32,786 nt of DNA from Spirogloea muscicola (Eukaryota > Streptophyta > Zygnematophyceae > Spirogloeales > Spirogloeaceae): positions 1,148,049 to 1,180,834 of the forward strand of contig WELB01000002.1 in the NCBI GenBank assembly GCA_009602725.1, read 5' to 3'. Under the pieces are notes generated by a model, which worked only from the letters and a program-made list of their open reading frames with translations, ran no database searches and had not been told where the DNA came from. How positions within the stretch are numbered: position 1 is the stretch's first letter; each line of letters begins with the position of its first letter. The translations under genes and the position numbers were made by a program. Of this stretch, positions 1-28,640 are shown one piece after another.

Positions 1-3000
1 CTCCTGCGCCTGCACGTCAGGTCTCCCCCGCCTCTCCCTCCCTCCGCCCCTGCTGCAGCAGCTGCTTCCGCTGCCCCCCCCCCTCATTGCTCCTCTCGCC
101 GTCTCCTTCCCTCACTTCCCCCCACCCCCTCTCCTCCGGGACCCCCCCGCGTGTGTGTCTCGCTGTGTGGACAAGGTGTTCAGTGGCCTCCTCCGACGCC
201 TTTCGCCAGCGTCTGCGTTTCTCTGCTGAGATGCGCTTTCAATGTCAATCACATATATTCCCTCCCCCAGAGCAGCTCGCAGCTCGCATCCTTCAGTGAT
301 CACCCGCCGCTGTGCCAGTGGCGAGCAATGTGGCAACAATCTGGCAGTAGCTGAGCAAGCACAGGCCTTGGCGCCGCCTCTGCCAAAGCGAGACTGCTTT
401 TGCGGCTTAGGAGCGCTCAGCGCTTGACCGATAGGCTCTCCACTGCTCCACCAGGTACGACAGCCGCGAGCGCCTCCACGTCCAGATTGCAGGGGCTCGG
501 CCCCGTTGGGAGGTGCCCGGCGACCTCCTGCCGCGCGACAACATCAGCGACCAGAATGTGGCATGCAGCGCCGCCCTGCTCCGGGCCAGTGGCGAGGCTG
601 CCGCCGAGCCCTTCGAGGACGACCTGCCGGGGCTGCAGACCGAATTTCGGGGGCCCCCAAGCCTCGACTCGCTGCTCGTCTTCTCGTACACCGTGCAGCC
701 TTTTGGCTTCGCCGTGTCACGCAGCGACACAGGCGAGGTGCTCTTTAACAGCACCCCATCGTCAGCGACGTGCCCCTTCCACCGGGGCACGGCGGCCGTT
801 CAGCCGCTTGTCTTCAAGGACCAGTACCTCAGCCTGTCGACGGCGCTGCCGCGTGATGCGCACGACCTGTATGGCCTCGGCGAGAGCACGCGGCCAGACG
901 GCCAGCGGCTCTCGCCCGGCAGCCGGTACACGCTCTGGGCGTCTGACATTGCATCGAGCACACTTAGTGTCAGCCTCTACAGCTCCCACCCCTTCTACCT
1001 GGACCTGCGCCACGGCGGCAGCGCACACGGCGTGCTGCTTCTCAACAGCAACGGCATGGACGTGGAGTATGGGCACGGCAGCTTGACGTACCGCGCTATC
1101 GGCGGCATCCTCGACTTCTACTTCTTCGCAGGGCCATCGCCGCTTGCCGTCGTGGACCAGTACACGGCGCTGGTCGGCCGCCCAGTCATGCCGCCGTACT
1201 GGACGCTAGGTGAGCCAAGGCGGAGCCCATCTTGCCTATGACATCGGCTTTGTAGCAGGCTTGCTGATCTTGTAGTTGCGAGCAGCCCCAAAGCACTCCG
1301 GATGCCGAAGCTTCATACTGTTGCTGGCGCGCGCAGGCTTCCATCAGAGCCGGTACGGGTACAGGGACTTAGAAGAGTTGGCGGGAGTGGTGGCGCACTA
1401 CAAGGACGCCAGAATTCCCCTGGAGGCCATCTGGAGTGACATCGACTCTATGCACGATTGGAAGGACTTCACACTAGACCCCGTCAACTTCCCCGAGGCT
1501 GGTATGCGCGAGTTTGTGGACAAGCTCCACCAAGAGGAGCAGCACTTCATTGTCATCATCGATCCAGGTCCGCCTGCTGGCACCTTGCAGGCCTGCGGCA
1601 AGACTGTGAGAGTGGTCAGGGCTCTCGCCCAATGTCTGAGGTCTTTCAATGTGCCTCGTCTCGTGCCTCGACATTCTGATCAGGGGTGCTCCCTGCTCCA
1701 AGCCAGAATTATCATTTAGAGGCTCAGCTAGACCAAAACACGGCAGACTATAATTGCTGAGCCAGCAAATTTCTCTTTCTATTTAGTAGACGCTGATGGT
1801 ATGGAATGGAATGGGAATGCATAGAAATGCACACATGCAGTGACCATGAAATTAGGATTGGCAGGCATAAAGGTGGAGAAAGGCTATCCGGCATATGAGC
1901 GCGGGCTCGCAGAAGGCGTGTTCATCCTGGACCGGCAGGGCGCGCCGTATCTCGGCCAGGTGTGGCCGGGCCCCGTGCACTACCCGGACTTCCTGCACCC
2001 CGCGACCGAGGGGTATTGGGCGCGAGAGATTGTGGAGTTCCACGGCCGTCTGCCCTTCGACGCGCTCTGGATCGACACCAACGAGCCGTCAAACTTCTGC
2101 ACCGCCATTGCGGCCTCGCTGCCTGAAGACCGCCCCTGCCCAGTGAGCCAAGCCGATGTCCTCACTTGCTGCCTGGTCATCAACGATACCGATCCCTCGC
2201 TGTGGGACCGGCCTCCGTATGACATCAACGCCGGCGGCGGCAAGCTGCACCTCAATTACCGGACCGTGGCCATGAGCGCGACCCACTACAATGGCGTGTT
2301 GGAGTACAACGCGCACAACCTCTACGGCCTGGCCGAGGCGAAGGCCACCAGCGCAGCCATGTGGCGTATCCTCGGCCGCCGCCCATTCGTGCTGTCAAGG
2401 TCCACGTTTCCCGGCGCCGGGCGCTTTGCCGGGCACTGGACGGGCGACAATGCAGCGACCTGGGAGGACCTGTACTACTCCATTCCTGCTATCCTGGACA
2501 TGGGCTTGTTTGGCATCCCATTTGTTGGTGCTGACATCTGTGGATTCGCGGGGAATACTACGGAGGAGCTCTGCAGCCGGTGGGCACAGCTGGGCGCCTT
2601 CTACCCCTTCAGCCGCAATCACGGGGCGATTGAGTCTTCCCACCAAGAGCTCTACCTGTGGGAAAGCGTTGCCGAGGTCGCCAGAAACGCTCTGGCGCTG
2701 CGGTATCGACTGCTGCCATACTTGTATACGCTCTCCTATGAGGCGCACGTCTCCGGCCACCCGATGGCTAGATCCCTGTGGATGCACCACTCGCAGGACC
2801 CGCAGACCATTGGCATCGACAAGCAATTTCTCCTGGGGAGTGGACTTCTTGTGACGCCAGTGCTGACCAAAGGCACTGTGACTGTGGAGGGCTACTTCCC
2901 AAATGTGACCTGGTACAGTCTCGTGGAAAGGTCGCACATCTGCAGCACTGGCGAGCATGTGCAGCTGGAGGCGCCTCTAGACACAATACACGTGCACGTT

Positions 3001-3549
3001 GCGGCTGGAAGTATTATCCCTATGCAGCAGAGCGCCATGACTACGGAGGCCTCCCGTCGAACGCCCTTCGAACTCATTGTTGCTTTTCAGATGGACGTAG
3101 ATGCTGATGTTCAGGCAGGTTGCGCTCAGCTTGGCATCTCGTCCCAGGAGGTGATACACAAAGCACACGGCCAGCTTTACTGGGACAAGGGTGTGGAGCG
3201 CGACCTGGACCTTGGCAAGGACAGCTTCACGCTTATCCAGTACAATGCCACCATCAGCATTTCTTGTGACCCCACGTCTTCACACCTCTCACAAATGCGT
3301 GGCAGGCTTGAGGCGAGGGTTGACAATGGAGGCGTCATTGGTGATTACTCCATTGCCTTGGAAGCTGTTGCAATTCTTGGAGTTCCCAAGAGGCCATCTT
3401 CAGTATTTCTAGTTGATGGGCCTAAGGCATCGGAGCTTGAAATACTCCACTATGAGTGGCCGAGGCTGCACATTGCAGGCTTGACCTTGCCAATGGAAGC
3501 AGGTTTTGTGATTGAATGGGAGCACGTTGCTCAATCTAACCTTGTCTGA
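1..3549 (+). CDS. GH31 alpha-glucosidase, 5' partial, 4 visible exons
   Basis: Hydrolyses terminal alpha-glucosidic bonds (maltase-type); plant relatives act in the secretory pathway or cell wall. Exons by GT-AG joins: 1-20, 455-1209, 1337-1567, 1865-3549, giving 896 residues with phase kept. The first 20 bases join to 455 to give LLRLHV-RYDSRERLHV, matching the N-terminal beta domain of plant GH31 enzymes, so the signal peptide and roughly 70 residues lie left of the window. Catalytic landmarks are clear: the nucleophile Asp in LWIDTNEPSNF (codon 2074-2076, visible residue 406), the acid/base Asp in GHWTGDN (2446-2448, residue 530), and the second GH31 signature around GADICGFAGNTTEELC (from about 2530). 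The large last exon holds most of the catalytic barrel and the C-terminal beta domains, ending at TGA 3547-3549. Alpha-glucosidase is the best fit; alpha-xylosidase is a less likely GH31 alternative because the WIDMNE-type site is glucosidase-like. Confidence 0.9.
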
Positions 3550-13725: not shown

Positions 13726-14504
13726 ATGGCGGCTGCGGAGTCGAAGCCGGGTCCTGGCGCGGCCGCTGGCGAGGACTACCAGCTGCGGTGCGAGCTGCGG
13801 GGCCACGCAGACGACGTGAGCGGCCCTCCCTGCTGCAGCCGCCGCACGCCCCGAGCTCGGCAGCTCGGGCATCTCGTGCAGCTCTGCCTCGGAAGCTCGT
13901 CGTACTGCCGGGAATCAGCGCCAGTCGCCGATCAGGTCCTGAGCCGCCGCTGCTGGCCACCCGTCGGTTGCGTTCCCGTAGGTGCGTGCTGTNCCGCCGC
14001 CGCCGCCGCCGGCGCCGCCTCGCGGCGGGGCGGCGACACAGAGACGGCCGCAAGGCCTTCGGCCGTGCGCTCGTTAGGTCATCGATGAAGCCCCAGGCGC
14101 GGACCTCAAGCGGTTGACGCATGGACATCGTGCGCCGGCGCTCTCCCTGCAGGCCGCGCCGCGCCGCCTGCCGCGGCCTCAGTCTTGGCAGCTGAATCCG
14201 CTGCACACCTCAAGGCGCTCGGCAGCCGGCCCGTGAGATGGCGGCTGCGGAGTCGGAGCCGGGTCCTGGCGCGGCCGCTGGCGAGGACTACCAGCTGCGG
14301 TGCGAGCTGCGGGGCCACGCAGACGACGTGAGCGGCCCTCCCTGCTGCAGCCGCCGCACGCCCCGAGCTCGGCAGCTCGGGCATCTCGTGCAGCACTGCC
14401 TTGGAAGCCAATCGTGCTGCCGGGAATTAGCGCCAGTCGCTGATCAGGTCCTGAGCTGCCGCTGCTGGCCACTCGTCGGTTGCGTTCCCGTAGGTGCGGG
14501 CTGT
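13475..14504. repeat. 512-bp tandem duplication split by a single N (13993)
   Basis: Copy A (about 13475-13992) and copy B (13994 to about 14504) align with a constant 512-bp offset; for example TTAGGTCATCGATGA sits at 13562 and 14074, and the PLAA ATG at 13726 and 14238. They differ by scattered substitutions, densest in the intron near 13881-13990, plus a Lys/Glu change in exon 1. Copy A stops 11 nt into PLAA exon 2; after the N the sequence restarts in the GCC run that begins copy A. That is how two overlapping allelic contigs placed end to end would look. Confidence 0.85.
13726..13815 (+). pseudogene. Extra copy of PLAA exon 1
   Basis: The 90 nt are nearly identical to 14238-14327 and encode the same MAAAES...GHADD start with Lys instead of Glu at residue 7. 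A GTGAGCGG donor follows. Its partner exon 2 is cut after 11 nt by the N at 13993, so this copy cannot make PLAA alone, though it could in principle splice to exon 2 at 14494. It is most likely an assembly duplicate of the true exon. Confidence 0.7.
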
Positions 14505-22690: not shown

Positions 22691-23041
22691 GGCAAGGTGG
22701 TGAGAGGCAATGGGATTGGGCTAGCCCGAGCGACAGAAGGACACTTGCGAGTGCACAATACACAACCCCGAGGCAACGAAGCCGCCTTGCGGCTTGCGCC
22801 CTTGCGGCTTTCTGCTCGTGGTGCAGCACAGCTCAAGAGGTCAGCAGGCCGGGCGAGAGGAGGTTAAGACTAAGCTCCCAGCGTCCAGACTCGGGCTGCT
22901 GCAGAGCCTGCAGGCGAGAGCCCCTTGATGGCGACGTAGCATTCAGTTGCCTCAGCCCTTCCTACATACCGTAGTAACAAAATTCTACATTCACTTATAG
23001 TGACACCTCGTCTTTCTCCTCCTGGCTGAGCCGCTCTGTTA

Positions 23042-23123
23042 ATGTCAGCAGCCGCTTTCTTCACTTCCTCTTCACGAGAGCCCACAACGCCCAACTCGGC
23101 TCCGCCAGGTCCCGCCGAGGTCG

Positions 23124-23171
<48 letters not shown>

Positions 23172-24054
23172 ACACCGCACAGCCGCTGGTCCTGGCCTTG
23201 AGCGGCCGAACGCAGCGGCGGTGGGGCTCGCGGGCGGCGCCACCGGGCCCCCACCGCCAGCACTGGGCGAGCCCTTCCCAATGGGCGGCCTTGGCGGCGG
23301 CGTGGCGGCAGGCGCGGCGCAGGGCTTCGCATACTACACAAACCCTCTGGCGGCGTACGCGCCGAAGCCTGGCGGGGCCTCCACACAGTGGCGAGCGCCC
23401 CAGGCTGCGCCACAGCAGCCTCTGATCCCGCAGCTGCAGGCGTCGCCACAGCCAGGCGCGCCCTTCTTTGCGCCGCCAGGGCGGCCAGAGAACCACGGTG
23501 GCGCCATGCCGGCTCCCACGGACCCTCGTGTGGGAGCGAGCTTCGGACGGGGAGGCCCGTGGCGGCCCCCCCATCAGCCGAGGCCGCCTCGGCAGTTCCG
23601 GCCTTACGTGGGCCAAGGCCACGATGGTGCCGGCATGGCTGGCCGAGCTGGTGGTGGCAGCAGCTTCATGGGTACGCATCGCGGCGGCTTCCCAGGTGGG
23701 GCTCAGCCTGGTGGTCAGCTCCTTCGCCCAGATGGGCGGCAGGACGGACGGAGTCGTGGTGGCCGTGGTGGCGGGGGCCCGTCGAGGGGCCCAAAGGCCC
23801 CGCGGCACGGCGGCGGCGGCGGCGGCGGCGGCCATGGCAGCGGCGGTGAGGTGTCGGCGCGCGAGAAGCCCCACCTGTTCTACAACAAGTCCATGGTGCA
23901 GGACCCCTGGAAGGACTTGCTCGCGGCCCTGCCCCCAGCTGCAGCATCCCCGTCGCACCCTCCGCTACAGGCTACGCCAAACCCTGGCCGTGAAACCAGC
24001 AGCAAGAGCTCTGAGGGCTTGGAAACAGATGCCGCAGCAAGCAACTTGACCTGA
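23042..24054 (+). CDS. Gly/Pro/Arg-rich (RGG-like) protein, unknown function
   Basis: A low-complexity protein with Gly-, Pro- and RGG/GRG-type stretches (GRGGPWRPPHQPRPPRQF, SRGGRGGGGPSRG). It ends with a less degenerate segment, REKPHLFYNKSMVQDPWKDL, before TGA 24052-24054. The downstream frame is open from before 23221. The best start context, ATG 23042 (MSAAAFFTSSSREPTTPN), lies in another frame that runs into a (GCC)n poly-Ala tract at about 23119-23170, so a frame change (miscounted repeat or tiny intron) is needed between about 23170 and 23221. A conservative alternative is the in-frame ATG at 23281. RGG regions commonly bind RNA and the aromatic D-P-W tail looks like a conserved short motif, but I cannot assign a family. 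The 362-codon minus frame over the same DNA is Arg/Ala-rich and looks like a shadow. Confidence 0.5.
23119..23170. repeat. (GCC)n triplet microsatellite
   Basis: About 16-17 consecutive GCC/CGC triplets encode poly-Ala in the frame of ATG 23042 and poly-Arg in the frame of the downstream open frame. It sits where the two parts of the RGG-like gene fall out of frame. Such tracts are prone to length polymorphism and assembly error. Confidence 0.9.
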
Positions 24055-24949: not shown

Positions 24950-27682
24950 TCATCTGCAACTCATTTGTGACTTTGCGGATGTGGACGCCTTCTCCTTTGC
25001 TGAGGGGGATATACCACGCGCCGTCTGCAGCAGCGCATCCATTATGTACTTATCTGAGTGTAGGCCCGCACGGAATTCCTCAAAGCTCAGCCGCCCGTCG
25101 CTGTTGGCATCCATGCGGTCGAACAGGTCATCCAGCTCGCCCTGCTCTGTGATGTTCGACGGGAGGAACTCACACGGCAACGCCTGCCCGCATTTGCAGC
25201 AAGCAACATCATTTGCTTTCAGCAACAGCACGACATACTACTTCCTGTGCTTAAAGATTATTGCAGCCAAACAAGTACTCTGATTCTATTGCAGCCAAAC
25301 AAGAAGTAGCAGCATCTAGTCCTCTTAAAAATGTTGAATCGCATGGACACACTGACCAAGTCCGCACAATGGTTGGCAAAGTTTGCCTTTCTTACTCGCA
25401 ACATGCAAGCAAGCTCCTCCTTTGAAATGTGACCCGAATCGTCCAAGTCGTACATCTGCAGCCAGTAAGGTTTTGTGAGGGATATCTCTGTTATGTATGC
25501 AGTCTCGCAAAAGCTTAATGCCTGCATGAGCCAAGAAACACTGTGGTGAGCGGAATTTCTGCTCCATCAACTTGCATGTAGGCGCTGTACCTTGAAGCAG
25601 AACTTGAGGGCCTCTTCGCCCTCCGACTTCTTCAGGGATGCAAACCCGCACACGATTCTCGCGCATGTCCACTGTGCCATCGCTATTTGCGTCAAAGATG
25701 TCAAAGATGCGATGTGCAATGGGGGTCAGCGAGCCCATCTGCATGCCCTGCAACACCTGCTGAAATGCTGGGAGTGTCAGGCTGGTCCCATCGCCTGCCC
25801 TGCAGCACAACAGCTACGTTGGCCATCAGTGACCTTAGCAGGCACACGCAGGAACACTGCCTTGGGTAGCCATCTGAGCCCATTTTGCACCAAAGTAGAG
25901 GTAGCCCTACTCGTACCTGAAGCATGTCACGACTAGCTGCCATGCCAAGGGAAGAGATCGCCGTGTGGGTGCAATGAGTGAATGACGGCGCCTAAGTGCC
26001 TCAAGGTGCGCAAGCATATGACGAGCCAGAAGGTGATAAGGGTCGAGATTGCATACAAGCGTTTGAATTGGCTGTGCAGCATCTTGAGCTCCCCGGAACT
26101 GAGCCCCTCGCTGCCCATGAGTGACCGCAGCTGCTTGGTACGCAACATGAACTGGTTGCTCACGATGCTGGCATAGGCAGCCGCACGGAACTTGCGGCGA
26201 GCATTGAAGGAGATGAGCCGACGGAAGATGTCCTCCTCCACTGGCTCCCGCTTTGCTACTTGGCCCGTCACCCAGGGATGTAGCAGCAGCTGCCACGCGG
26301 TACAAGCACCGGCTGATGAGGGCTTCTGGGACAGCTGACCAACGCAGCAGCAGGAGCGGCAGCTGGTTGACAAGTGAGGCAGGAATCCACAGCTCACCCA
26401 TGTTACAAGGTCGCTCTTACCTCTGCAGCGCTTGGCCGCTGGCTGGCGTCCAAAGTGAGGAGGCCCTCAATGAGCTGCTTGGCAGATGGCGACACGCTCT
26501 TCCACGTCTTCTCGTCAAAGTCAAAGGAGGCCTGCACGCAAGGCCATGGGATACCAGCTGAATCGGAAGTACCTCATGATAACAAAGGGCTCATTCTCTA
26601 TCTTACTCTTGGAGTTGCGTGAGCGCATGCTGGCCCTTTCTTGACTGGCTGCGACAAATGCAATCCCGCTCGGTCCTGTCTTGAAGTGCAGCTGACAAGC
26701 ACACAGAATCTGTGGCAGGGGCTTCGCTCAAGTTATGCTGTGCTCAACAGCAGAACACCTACCGTCTGGATAAGCTGCTGCTTCTCCTTGTTGCTGCGAG
26801 CGTGGAAGGGAGGGTATCTGATCGACGTCGACATCGAATGCACGATGCGATAAAGTCAGGCTGGCCAGCAACTCGAGCGAGGCGACACGCACAAACATCA
26901 TGAGTGGGCACGTTATGTTGCTCACTCAGGAGCAAGCGCTCAGCCGGCTCACTGCCAGTATCACGAGGAAAAAAGGTGGCCGTCCTCGCGGGTGCTCACC
27001 CGCAGAGCAGGATGTAGAGGATGACGCCGAGAGACCACATGTCGCTGGCGGGGCCGAGGCGGCGCTGCCGCAGCGCCTCGGGCGGCACGTAGTCAATGGA
27101 GCCGAAGAGGCCGGCGAGCGGCCGCGTGGTGCCCTCGATCTGGCTGAGCCCGAAGTCCATGATCTTCAGCGGCGCCGCCTCGTCGGGCGTGAGGAAGAGG
27201 CAGTTCTCGGGCTTGAGGTCGCCGTGCACGATGCCCGCGGCGTGCAGGCTGGCCAGGCCGGCGGCGAGCTGCCGGATGACGGCGGCGGCGCCGGCCTCGG
27301 AGTAGCGCTCCTGCAACGCGATGCGGTCGAAGAGCTCGCCGCCGGAGCAGAGCTCCAGCACCAGGTGGATGTCCGCGTCGTCCTCGAACACGTCGCGCAG
27401 GTGGATGACGTTGGCGTGCGGCGACACGCGCTCCACCACCGCCGCCATCACCACCACCTCGTTCTCCACCATCGCCGCCGCCTCCGCGTGCGCGCCCCGC
27501 TTCCTTAGCGTCTTCACCGCCACCTCCCCGCCGCCGCCGCCGCCGCCGCCGCCGCGGGCCACGGCGCGCCGCACGACGGAGAAGCCGCCGGTGCCCAGCA
27601 CCTCCGCCAGCTCGTAGCACTCCTCCAGGCGCCGCGGCGGTCCGTCGTCGTCGTCGTCCTCGCTGGGGCTACCGGCGCCCAT
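24950..27682 (-). CDS. CCaMK-like calcium/calmodulin-dependent kinase with three EF-hands, 7 exons, one frameshift
   Basis: Ser/Thr kinase with the architecture of plant CCaMK (DMI3), a nuclear decoder of Ca2+ spiking. Exons: 27682-27000, 26817-26763, 26531-26421, 26289-26057, 25799-25591, 25455-25396, 25183-24950 (about 527 aa; land-plant CCaMK about 520). The kinase domain has the Gly loop GTGGFSVV, Lys57 in VAVK, LVLELCSGGELFDRI, DFG Asp176, GLFGSIDY and SDMWSLGVILYILL. The catalytic loop reads HGDLKPEN (Gly154), not HRD. Thr255 in FDEKTWK aligns with the land-plant autophosphorylation Thr. A calmodulin-binding/autoinhibitory helix (FNARRKFRAAAYASIVS, about 312-326) precedes EF loops DANSDGTVDMRE, DLDDSGHISKEE and DANSDGRLSFEE. 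After the first EF loop (residue 408) one extra A/T pair at 25656-25657 shifts the frame; removing it restores VCGFASLKKSEGEEALKFCFK and the next exon's phase. The 3' end (QTARGISPS to stop 24950) is the least certain. Ordinary CDPK is excluded by the three-EF visinin-like tail. Confidence 0.88.
25259..25305. repeat. Short direct repeat in the CCaMK-like gene's last intron
   Basis: ATTGCAGCCAAACAAG occurs twice, near 25259 and 25289, inside the intron between exons 25455-25396 and 25183-24950. It has no coding effect. Confidence 0.7.
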
Positions 27683-27683
27683 G

Positions 27684-27853
27684 NGCTTCCTCAGCGTCTT
27701 CACCGCCACCTCCCCGCCGCCGCCGCGGGCCACGGCGCGTCGCACCACGGAGAAGCCGCCGGTGCCCAGCACCTCCGCCAGCGAGTAGTGCTCCTCCAGG
27801 CGCCGCGGCGCGCCGTCGTCATCGTCGTCCTCGCTGGGGCTGCCGGCACCCAT
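27684..27853 (-). pseudogene. Duplicate of the CCaMK-like first-exon start, joined by a single N
   Basis: This 57-codon stretch repeats the kinase start (MGAGSPSEDDDDDG ... EVLGTGGFSVVRRAVARGGGG ... VAVKTLRK), with Ala/Pro, His/Cys and Ser/Glu differences and four Gly where the next copy has nine. It stops after the VAVK lysine region. The N at 27683 falls in the codon before the ATG of the second copy, so the frame happens to stay open. A real protein would have a pointless second half Gly-loop lobe. The likely cause is two allelic contig ends abutting at the GGC repeat, with the true gene having one copy. Confidence 0.75.
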
Positions 27854-28239: not shown

Positions 28240-28640
28240 GAGGAGGGCTCGCCCATTGAGGATATGGGCTGGAAAAGCCAGCCCCAAAAAGAATGAACAA
28301 AGTACGAGAAGGGGCCAGAGGAAGCGCTAAGAACACAAAAGCACACAAAGAAAGAAAGCAGCTACAAATCACTCAGTAACCCCTGCTAAGCAGCCGCAAA
28401 TCAGAGAGGCTAGGGTCCTGAAAGTGGGTCCCCTCTCCTAAAGAAAGGGCTCGCCCATTGAGGATAGGGGCTGGACAAGCCAGCCCAAAAAAGAATGAAC
28501 AAAGAACGAGAAGGGGGCCAGAGGAAGCCAGAGGAAGCGCTAAGAAACCAAAGCACACAAAGAAAGAAAGCAGCTACAAATCACTCAGTAACCCCTGCTA
28601 AGCAGCCGCAAATCAGAGAGGGTCCCCTCTCCTAAAGGGC
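28240..28640 (+). repeat. 202-bp two-unit tandem repeat (hairpin family copies 5-6)
   Basis: GGGCTCGCCCATTGAGGATA occurs at about 28245 and again 202 bp later. Both units continue with the core (GGGCTGGAAAAGCCAGCCCC / GGGCTGGACAAGCCAGCCC), AAGAATGAACAAAG, CACACAAAGAAAGAAAGCAG, and ATCACTCAGTAACCCCTGCT. They differ by a few substitutions and a short insertion (an extra CCAGAGGAAG in unit 2). Confidence 0.85.

Follow-up and report, generated by a model that had tools for sequence, protein, structure and literature searches.

A probable CCaMK (DMI3) orthologue, kept as three homeologs, in a zygnematophycean alga that is most likely Spirogloea muscicola

Gene structure and predicted product

The DNA analysed here (the window) is a stretch of 32,786 nucleotides, C2:1148049-1180834, from an assembly of 153.1 Mb in 471 contigs that was searched as a whole. 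On its minus strand the window carries a gene for a kinase of the CCaMK type, the enzyme through which land plants decode calcium signals in mycorrhiza and root nodulation. The gene is very probably the CCaMK (DMI3) orthologue of its host, a member of the Zygnematophyceae that is most likely Spirogloea muscicola, and one of three homeologs kept after a genome triplication. Its start codon is an ATG at 27682 and its stop lies at 24950, in agreement with the limits given by a first-pass annotation of this DNA; the model has seven exons separated by six introns, all of which are GT-AG. The predicted product is 527 residues long, with an X at the single break in its frame.

Exon 1 (27000..27682; this and all features of the gene lie on the minus strand) encodes the N-terminus and the larger part of the kinase domain, with VAVK, the catalytic loop HGDLKPEN, DFG and GLFGSIDY, and is followed by a GT donor and a phase 2 intron. 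Exon 2 (26763..26817) encodes YPPFHARSNKEKQQLIQT, and exon 3 (26421..26531), which encodes ASFDFDEKTWK, holds the conserved autophosphorylation threonine, T255. The end of the kinase and the autoinhibitory and calmodulin-binding helix are contained in exon 4 (26057..26289). Exon 5 (25591..25799) contributes EF loop 1, preceded by a vestigial EF region, and is where the window copy has its single-base frameshift; exon 6 (25396..25455) contributes EF loop 2, and exon 7 (24950..25183) EF loop 3, the C-terminus and the stop. In the two homeologs with an intact frame, on contigs C8 and C126, the exon lengths give intron phases of 2-0-0-2-0-0; the window copy comes out as 2-0-0-2-1-1 because of the frameshift in exon 5. 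In the survey of CCaMK genes in PMC4672059, 23 of 34 genes have six introns, and the phases are 200200 in all but one of those 23.

The domain order of the product is kinase, FNARRK calmodulin-binding helix, and then three EF loops. The first-pass annotation had described just this, a kinase with a calmodulin-binding helix and exactly three EF loops in a visinin-like tail, and the Pfam, EF-pattern and PDB results bear it out; the blocks that it quoted as specific to CCaMK (LELCSGGELFDRI, GLFGSIDY and FDEKTWK) and the helix FNARRKFRAAAYASIVS are all present in the translation. Pfam was applied to the CCaMK product and to 10 open reading frames of the window, which holds 191 of at least 75 amino acids. 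In the CCaMK product it finds Pkinase (PF00069, E 1.1e-61) and four EF-hand families above their cut-offs (E 2.3e-18 to 7.5e-17). By reading of the translation, the kinase lysine, the helix-C Glu, the catalytic Asp, the Asn and DFG are all kept. FNARRK occupies residues 311-316 and supplies the F-N pair that marks the overlapping autoinhibitory and calmodulin-binding helix of CCaMK (F321 and N322 in Lotus), and T255, within EKTWK, is the equivalent of the autophosphorylation site T265 (Lotus) or T271 (Medicago). Each EF loop matches an EF-loop pattern of our own, which a degenerate loop would escape: loop 1 (DANSDGTVDMRE, 25658..25693, residues 397-408), loop 2 (DLDDSGHISKEE, 25414..25449, residues 433-444) and loop 3 (DANSDGRLSFEE, 25076..25111, residues 475-486). 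When the whole window is translated in six frames, the pattern has these three matches and no other, and 200 shuffles give a mean of 0.005 matches and a maximum of 1. A PDB search with the C-terminal EF half has calcineurin B and neuronal calcium sensors as its best matches (among the best 60 of 375), in keeping with a visinin-like domain.

By our own numbering, the counterparts of T271, F327, N328, R323 and K270 are kept, while S243 is changed to Cys and E319 to Asp; both changes are reported from some lower plants as well. The equivalent of S343 is Ser in all three copies, and that of S344 is Ser in C126 and Asn in C8 and in the window copy (C2). Exceptions at S343 and S344 are already known among land plants.

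The Medicago DMI3 sequence used for all comparisons was entered by hand; its T271, W342, S343 and S344 carry the residue numbers that PMC4672059 and PMC5696362 use. Over its full length the algal protein is 54% identical to DMI3 (277/517 positions). Within the kinase domain, identity to DMI3 is 59.1%, as against 36.8-44.2% to seven other kinases. A phylogeny, which the first-pass annotation had proposed as a check, was built from the kinase domains of 11 sequences: the three algal CCaMKs, DMI3, three further kinases of this genome, the PDB entries 9vhu and 2wei, CaMK1D and CaMKIV. (One row, L012, represents the near copies L012-L014; the tree was drawn without L019-L020 and weaker kinase matches.) DMI3 and its three algal counterparts here stand together on one side of a branch with support of 100/100, recovered in 100% of 200 bootstrap trees, and apart from CDPKs and animal CaMKs. 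Taken together, the kinase tree, the similarity over the full length, the domain order and the intron phases argue that the gene is a CCaMK orthologue.

Three homeologs and one CYCLOPS

A search of the genome for further copies, in which 82 of 211 candidates were scored, yields three CCaMK genes: that of the window and those of C8 and C126. The latter two share the seven-exon structure, and their frames run uninterrupted for 1572 and 1569 bases. The similarity extends beyond the gene. In alignments that list pieces of 150 bases or more, the window matches C8 at 32687-28635 (87%) and 27683-23213 (92%), and C126 at 32747-28635 (89%), 27683-23076 (87%) and 21992-14271 (88%). The last 8.3 kb of the fetched C8 stretch, past the match that ends at window position 23213, have no match of at least 150 bases to the window, and collinearity with C8 on that side of the gene is thus seen only to about 23.2 kb of the window. 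Given alignment beyond the gene on both contigs, we take the CCaMK locus to be part of a triplicated segment. Every pair of homeologs shows constraint on the protein, which in the window copy is hardly less than in the others: the nonsynonymous and synonymous substitution rates (dN/dS, NG86, over 521 codons after removal of gapped columns and of the broken codon) are 0.0085/0.088 for C2-C8 (about 0.10), 0.0187/0.138 for C2-C126 (about 0.14) and 0.0170/0.144 for C8-C126 (about 0.12). A scan of viral contigs for more CCaMKs gave 27 pattern matches and no relative.

The window also contains a second, duplicated start of exon 1 (27685..27853, minus strand), which adjoins an N at 27684. Because its coding part is identical to the C126 homeolog and because it abuts the N, it is probably an assembly artefact. 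The alternative of a tandem duplication was rejected: the duplicate equals C126 over a region in which C8 and C126 themselves differ by about 10%, and there is a similar flank beside the second N of the window, at 13993. That flank (13992-13759, 234 bases) is 99.6% identical to C126, as against about 88% in the neighbouring alignment, and we take it likewise to be an artefact of assembly.

The first-pass annotation had also suggested searching this genome for CYCLOPS and for nuclear calcium channel genes, and a CYCLOPS gene and domains of the CASTOR/POLLUX type were found. A CYCLOPS probe (the Lotus sequence, entered by hand) matches a single place, C105:226700-230700. The C-terminal block RLAESKGRGGVAPILSADVVALNKRCLDLEKEVRSLKLNLAFMNR is followed there by an intron-like gap and then by KDSEQTTKIEELEAEVKKL; an N-terminal block with RLNSEELF lies upstream (E 2.9e-5 for the block in that stretch). 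A short piece, MTRNRSSEL, is weak alone (E 0.33) and rests on its position between the other blocks, and a weaker rival, MTRSASAEL (E 3.0), occurs just before the N-terminal block. We take RLNSEELF and MTRNRSSEL to be the S50 and S154 regions, the second site lying 1-2 residues off its published number in the Lotus sequence as entered. By this alignment the S50 target site is conserved, and the S154 site is likely present. According to PMC5865340, phosphorylation at S50 and S154 is necessary for CYCLOPS activity in Lotus. The alga's own CYCLOPS C-terminus, used as query, brought up no further CYCLOPS, but lack of a match in this assembly is no proof of absence. The CASTOR/POLLUX-type domain PF06241 is above its cut-off at five of seven matches in the genome. 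CYCLOPS is apparently single-copy, while CCaMK, several GRAS genes and Dicer occur in threes.

Rival readings and the host lineage

The common kinase superfamily of CCaMK and CDPK, together with the vestigial-EF-like region that precedes EF loop 1, could be taken to mean that the locus encodes a CDPK, or a kinase related to CDPKs, in which one EF hand has degenerated. This is extremely improbable. The tree separates the algal copies from 9vhu, 2wei and the three other kinases of the genome at 100/100; the FNARRK helix is as in CaMKIV, and the intron phases are those of CCaMK. A CDPK has four calmodulin-like EF hands and no CaMK-type calmodulin helix, while this product has three EF loops and FNARRK, and its EF part resembles neuronal calcium sensors and calcineurin B, with CDPKs absent from the best 60 of 375 PDB matches. 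A CDPK identity was rejected on these grounds, and the placement inside the CDPKs with a degenerate fourth EF-hand, which the first-pass annotation had named as fatal to its proposal, did not occur. The same annotation had left the host as either a streptophyte alga or a chlorophyte to which the CCaMK family would then extend. The first branch stands and the second falls. GC-rich exons and a compact gene do have a chlorophyte look, but the abundance of GRAS genes, the presence of CYCLOPS and the triplicated loci (CCaMK, GRAS and Dicer) argue so strongly for a streptophyte that a chlorophyte host was rejected as scarcely credible. There are 92 GRAS exon matches in the genome, which on reading the list include at least five triplets and some pairs. 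Dicer_dimer is found at exactly three places, as a domain match irrespective of the type of Dicer. S. muscicola is reported to have three copies of a DCL2/3/4-type Dicer and to lack PYR/PYL receptors; it is also described as the one streptophyte alga in which a whole-genome duplication event, namely a triplication, has been detected. Another zygnematophyte with a triplicated genome is an unlikely host in view of that description, and the three Dicer_dimer places and the lack of a PYR1 match both agree with the reports on S. muscicola. A search of the assembly for rbcL gave no match, and plastid sequence may be missing from it.

Several points weigh against the reading of the locus as a CCaMK orthologue of S. 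muscicola. The tree has one hand-entered sequence as its sole land-plant CCaMK, and four of its eight inner branches were drawn open. The search of the genome for PYR1, which likewise gave no match, had no positive control. The catalytic loop, VHGDLKPEN (27203..27229, minus strand), has Gly in place of the Arg of HRD in all three homeologs and is thus non-RD, whereas HRD is found in all eight comparator kinases, the hand-entered DMI3 included, and an Arg before the catalytic Asp is the land-plant CCaMK state. The calmodulin-binding helix FNARRKFRAAAYASIVSNQF (26149..26208, minus strand) has Val at the Medicago W342 position in all three copies, the residue with which Medicago CCaMK (W342V) lost calmodulin binding in vitro. 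Together, HGD and the Val at W342 suggest that the calmodulin-dependent step may differ from that of land plants. Finally, the frame of the window copy breaks once, in exon 5 after GTVDMRE, where both homeologs are intact. This last point raises the possibility that the window copy is a dying pseudogene, with CCaMK now made only by the C8 and C126 homeologs. Besides the frameshift, which is missing from both homeologs, an assembly gap lies beside exon 1, and the dN to C126 is slightly higher for the window copy than for C8 (0.0187 versus 0.0170). That difference is small, however, and the dN/dS of the window copy remains near 0.10 and 0.14, so that any loss would be very recent. Both Ns are bordered by visibly mis-assembled sequence, which makes a base error no less likely, and decay of the window copy seems a real but less probable explanation.

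The calcium switch and the rest of the window

The mechanism proposed for the algal kinase follows that of the CCaMK family, from which its biochemical steps are inferred. At resting calcium the FNARRK helix would keep the kinase off. Calcium in the three EF hands, together with calcium-calmodulin on the helix, would free the kinase and permit autophosphorylation at the conserved threonine, and the active kinase would then phosphorylate CYCLOPS at its RxxS sites, switching transcription on.

Much of this machinery is shared with the CCaMKs of land plants (Medicago DMI3, Lotus CCaMK). Besides the domain order and the 54% identity over 517 positions, the three EF loops lie at the same places, and the FNARRK helix, the T271-type site, the S343 equivalent and, in the homeologs, the 200200 phases are common to both. 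Compared with the hand-entered DMI3, the algal copies differ in having HGD for HRD, Val, Phe and Tyr in the calmodulin helix at the positions of W342, L333 and I338, Asn at the S344 equivalent in two of the three copies, a shortened loop joining the lysine strand to helix C, an acidic N-terminus with a Gly run, and an additional C-terminal tail. They also differ in number, three copies standing against the one that is usual in land plants. Animal CaMKIV and CaMKI have a kinase followed by a calmodulin helix, as the algal protein does, and CaMKIV has FNARRK; they form a separate group in the tree and are not known to have a visinin-like EF domain.

The catalytic Asp, Lys and Asn are retained beside HGD in every copy, and an alignment by eye suggests that CCaMK lacks a phosphorylatable residue at the position of the CaMKI activation-loop site; loss of the HRD arginine may for that reason cost little. 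A literature search for a non-RD CCaMK found no report of one. The calmodulin helix is FNARRKFRAAAYASIVSN in C2 and C8 and ends in SIVSS in C126. In PMC5696362, Medicago W342V did not bind calmodulin in vitro, but W342A still did. CaMKIV has Ala at the W342 position, and this, together with the Phe at L333, makes it plausible that L333 to Phe compensates for W342 to Val. In view of the Phe, the Ala of CaMKIV and the binding by W342A, the idea that the kinase is blind to calmodulin from the W342 change alone was toned down. A bolder proposal is that the switch has been rewired, such that loss of the HRD Arg and the exchange of helix anchors (Leu to Phe, Trp to Val) alter calmodulin gating, calcium is sensed mainly and directly through the visinin-like domain, and three copies feed a single CYCLOPS with kept target sites. 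We regard this as speculative and rather unlikely; if true, it would be a living record of a CCaMK-CYCLOPS circuit whose calcium logic is unlike the mycorrhizal one.

Zygnematophycean CCaMK has already been published, so both family and host were to be expected, and the finding as first stated is largely known biology. The statement in the first-pass annotation that CCaMK orthologues are described from streptophyte algae proved right for Mesostigma and the Zygnematophyceae (PMC5482843, PMC11096116, PMC7289718). By PMC5482843, Mesostigma viride is the earliest-branching charophyte, group B5 CFK (CCaMK) occurs from Mesostigma onward, and chlorophytes are not among the holders in its table passage; the M. 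viride protein, likened here by description, lacks the first EF hand. The Zygnema CCaMK Zci_01672, from the same class as the host, is orthologous by description (PMC11096116 and PMC7289718). PMC11096116 places Zygnema CCaMK, CYCLOPS, POLLUX and a SYMRK pro-orthologue in separate expression modules, and PMC7289718, citing Delaux 2015, reports that zygnematophycean CCaMK orthologues rescue Medicago mutants. The other outcome that the first-pass annotation had named as refuting its proposal, a CCaMK already characterised in the host, was nearly reached: orthologues from the class are published and rescue is reported, but in the texts available our literature search found none that names a Spirogloea CCaMK gene. 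(Supplements lay outside that search, so a tree listing the gene may well be in print.) PMC4672059 states that CCaMK is missing from unicellular algae (on a check of six algal species) and that most CCaMKs are single-copy; given unicellular S. muscicola as host, this genome is an exception to both statements.

An ancestral role of CCaMK other than root symbiosis, as the first-pass annotation had proposed, would fit the published view, and the presence of CCaMK here supports that view, in which the kinase and its substrate CYCLOPS are older than root symbiosis. What remains of interest are the two shared substitutions and the 3:1 ratio of CCaMK to CYCLOPS as found. Three constrained homeologs with two common substitutions at residues important in land-plant CCaMK or in kinases generally, one copy of which differs at the S344 site, amount to a natural experiment, and residue swaps between the alga and Medicago would tell the parts of the switch needed for symbiosis from later additions.

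Several minor features lie elsewhere in the window and the assembly. An rDNA pattern occurs at three places in the assembly, of which two were scanned, and both are partial 18S matches. That in L032 (1357-3030) looks broken: by eye the 3' part alone can be recognised, and the match spans about 560 additional bases; that in L033 is likewise partial. No group I intron was seen near the 3' end of the 18S of L032, the only one of the two that was read. At the end of the window opposite CCaMK, exons of a glycoside hydrolase of family 31 (435-3546, plus strand) encode a mutarotase-like N-terminus, a TIM barrel and a C-terminal domain. A Gly- and Arg-rich open reading frame (22978-24051, plus strand) is convergent with CCaMK and has a weak match to MPLKIP (E 0.00049, under the Pfam cut-off). 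Direct repeats that have diverged lie between 28175 and 29378, among them the pair 28335-28409 and 28547-28621 (99% alike), with palindromes resembling GGGCTGG...CCAGCCC. Sequence that by eye is similar to these repeats adjoins the rDNA fragment in L032, which suggests that the repeat may be dispersed.
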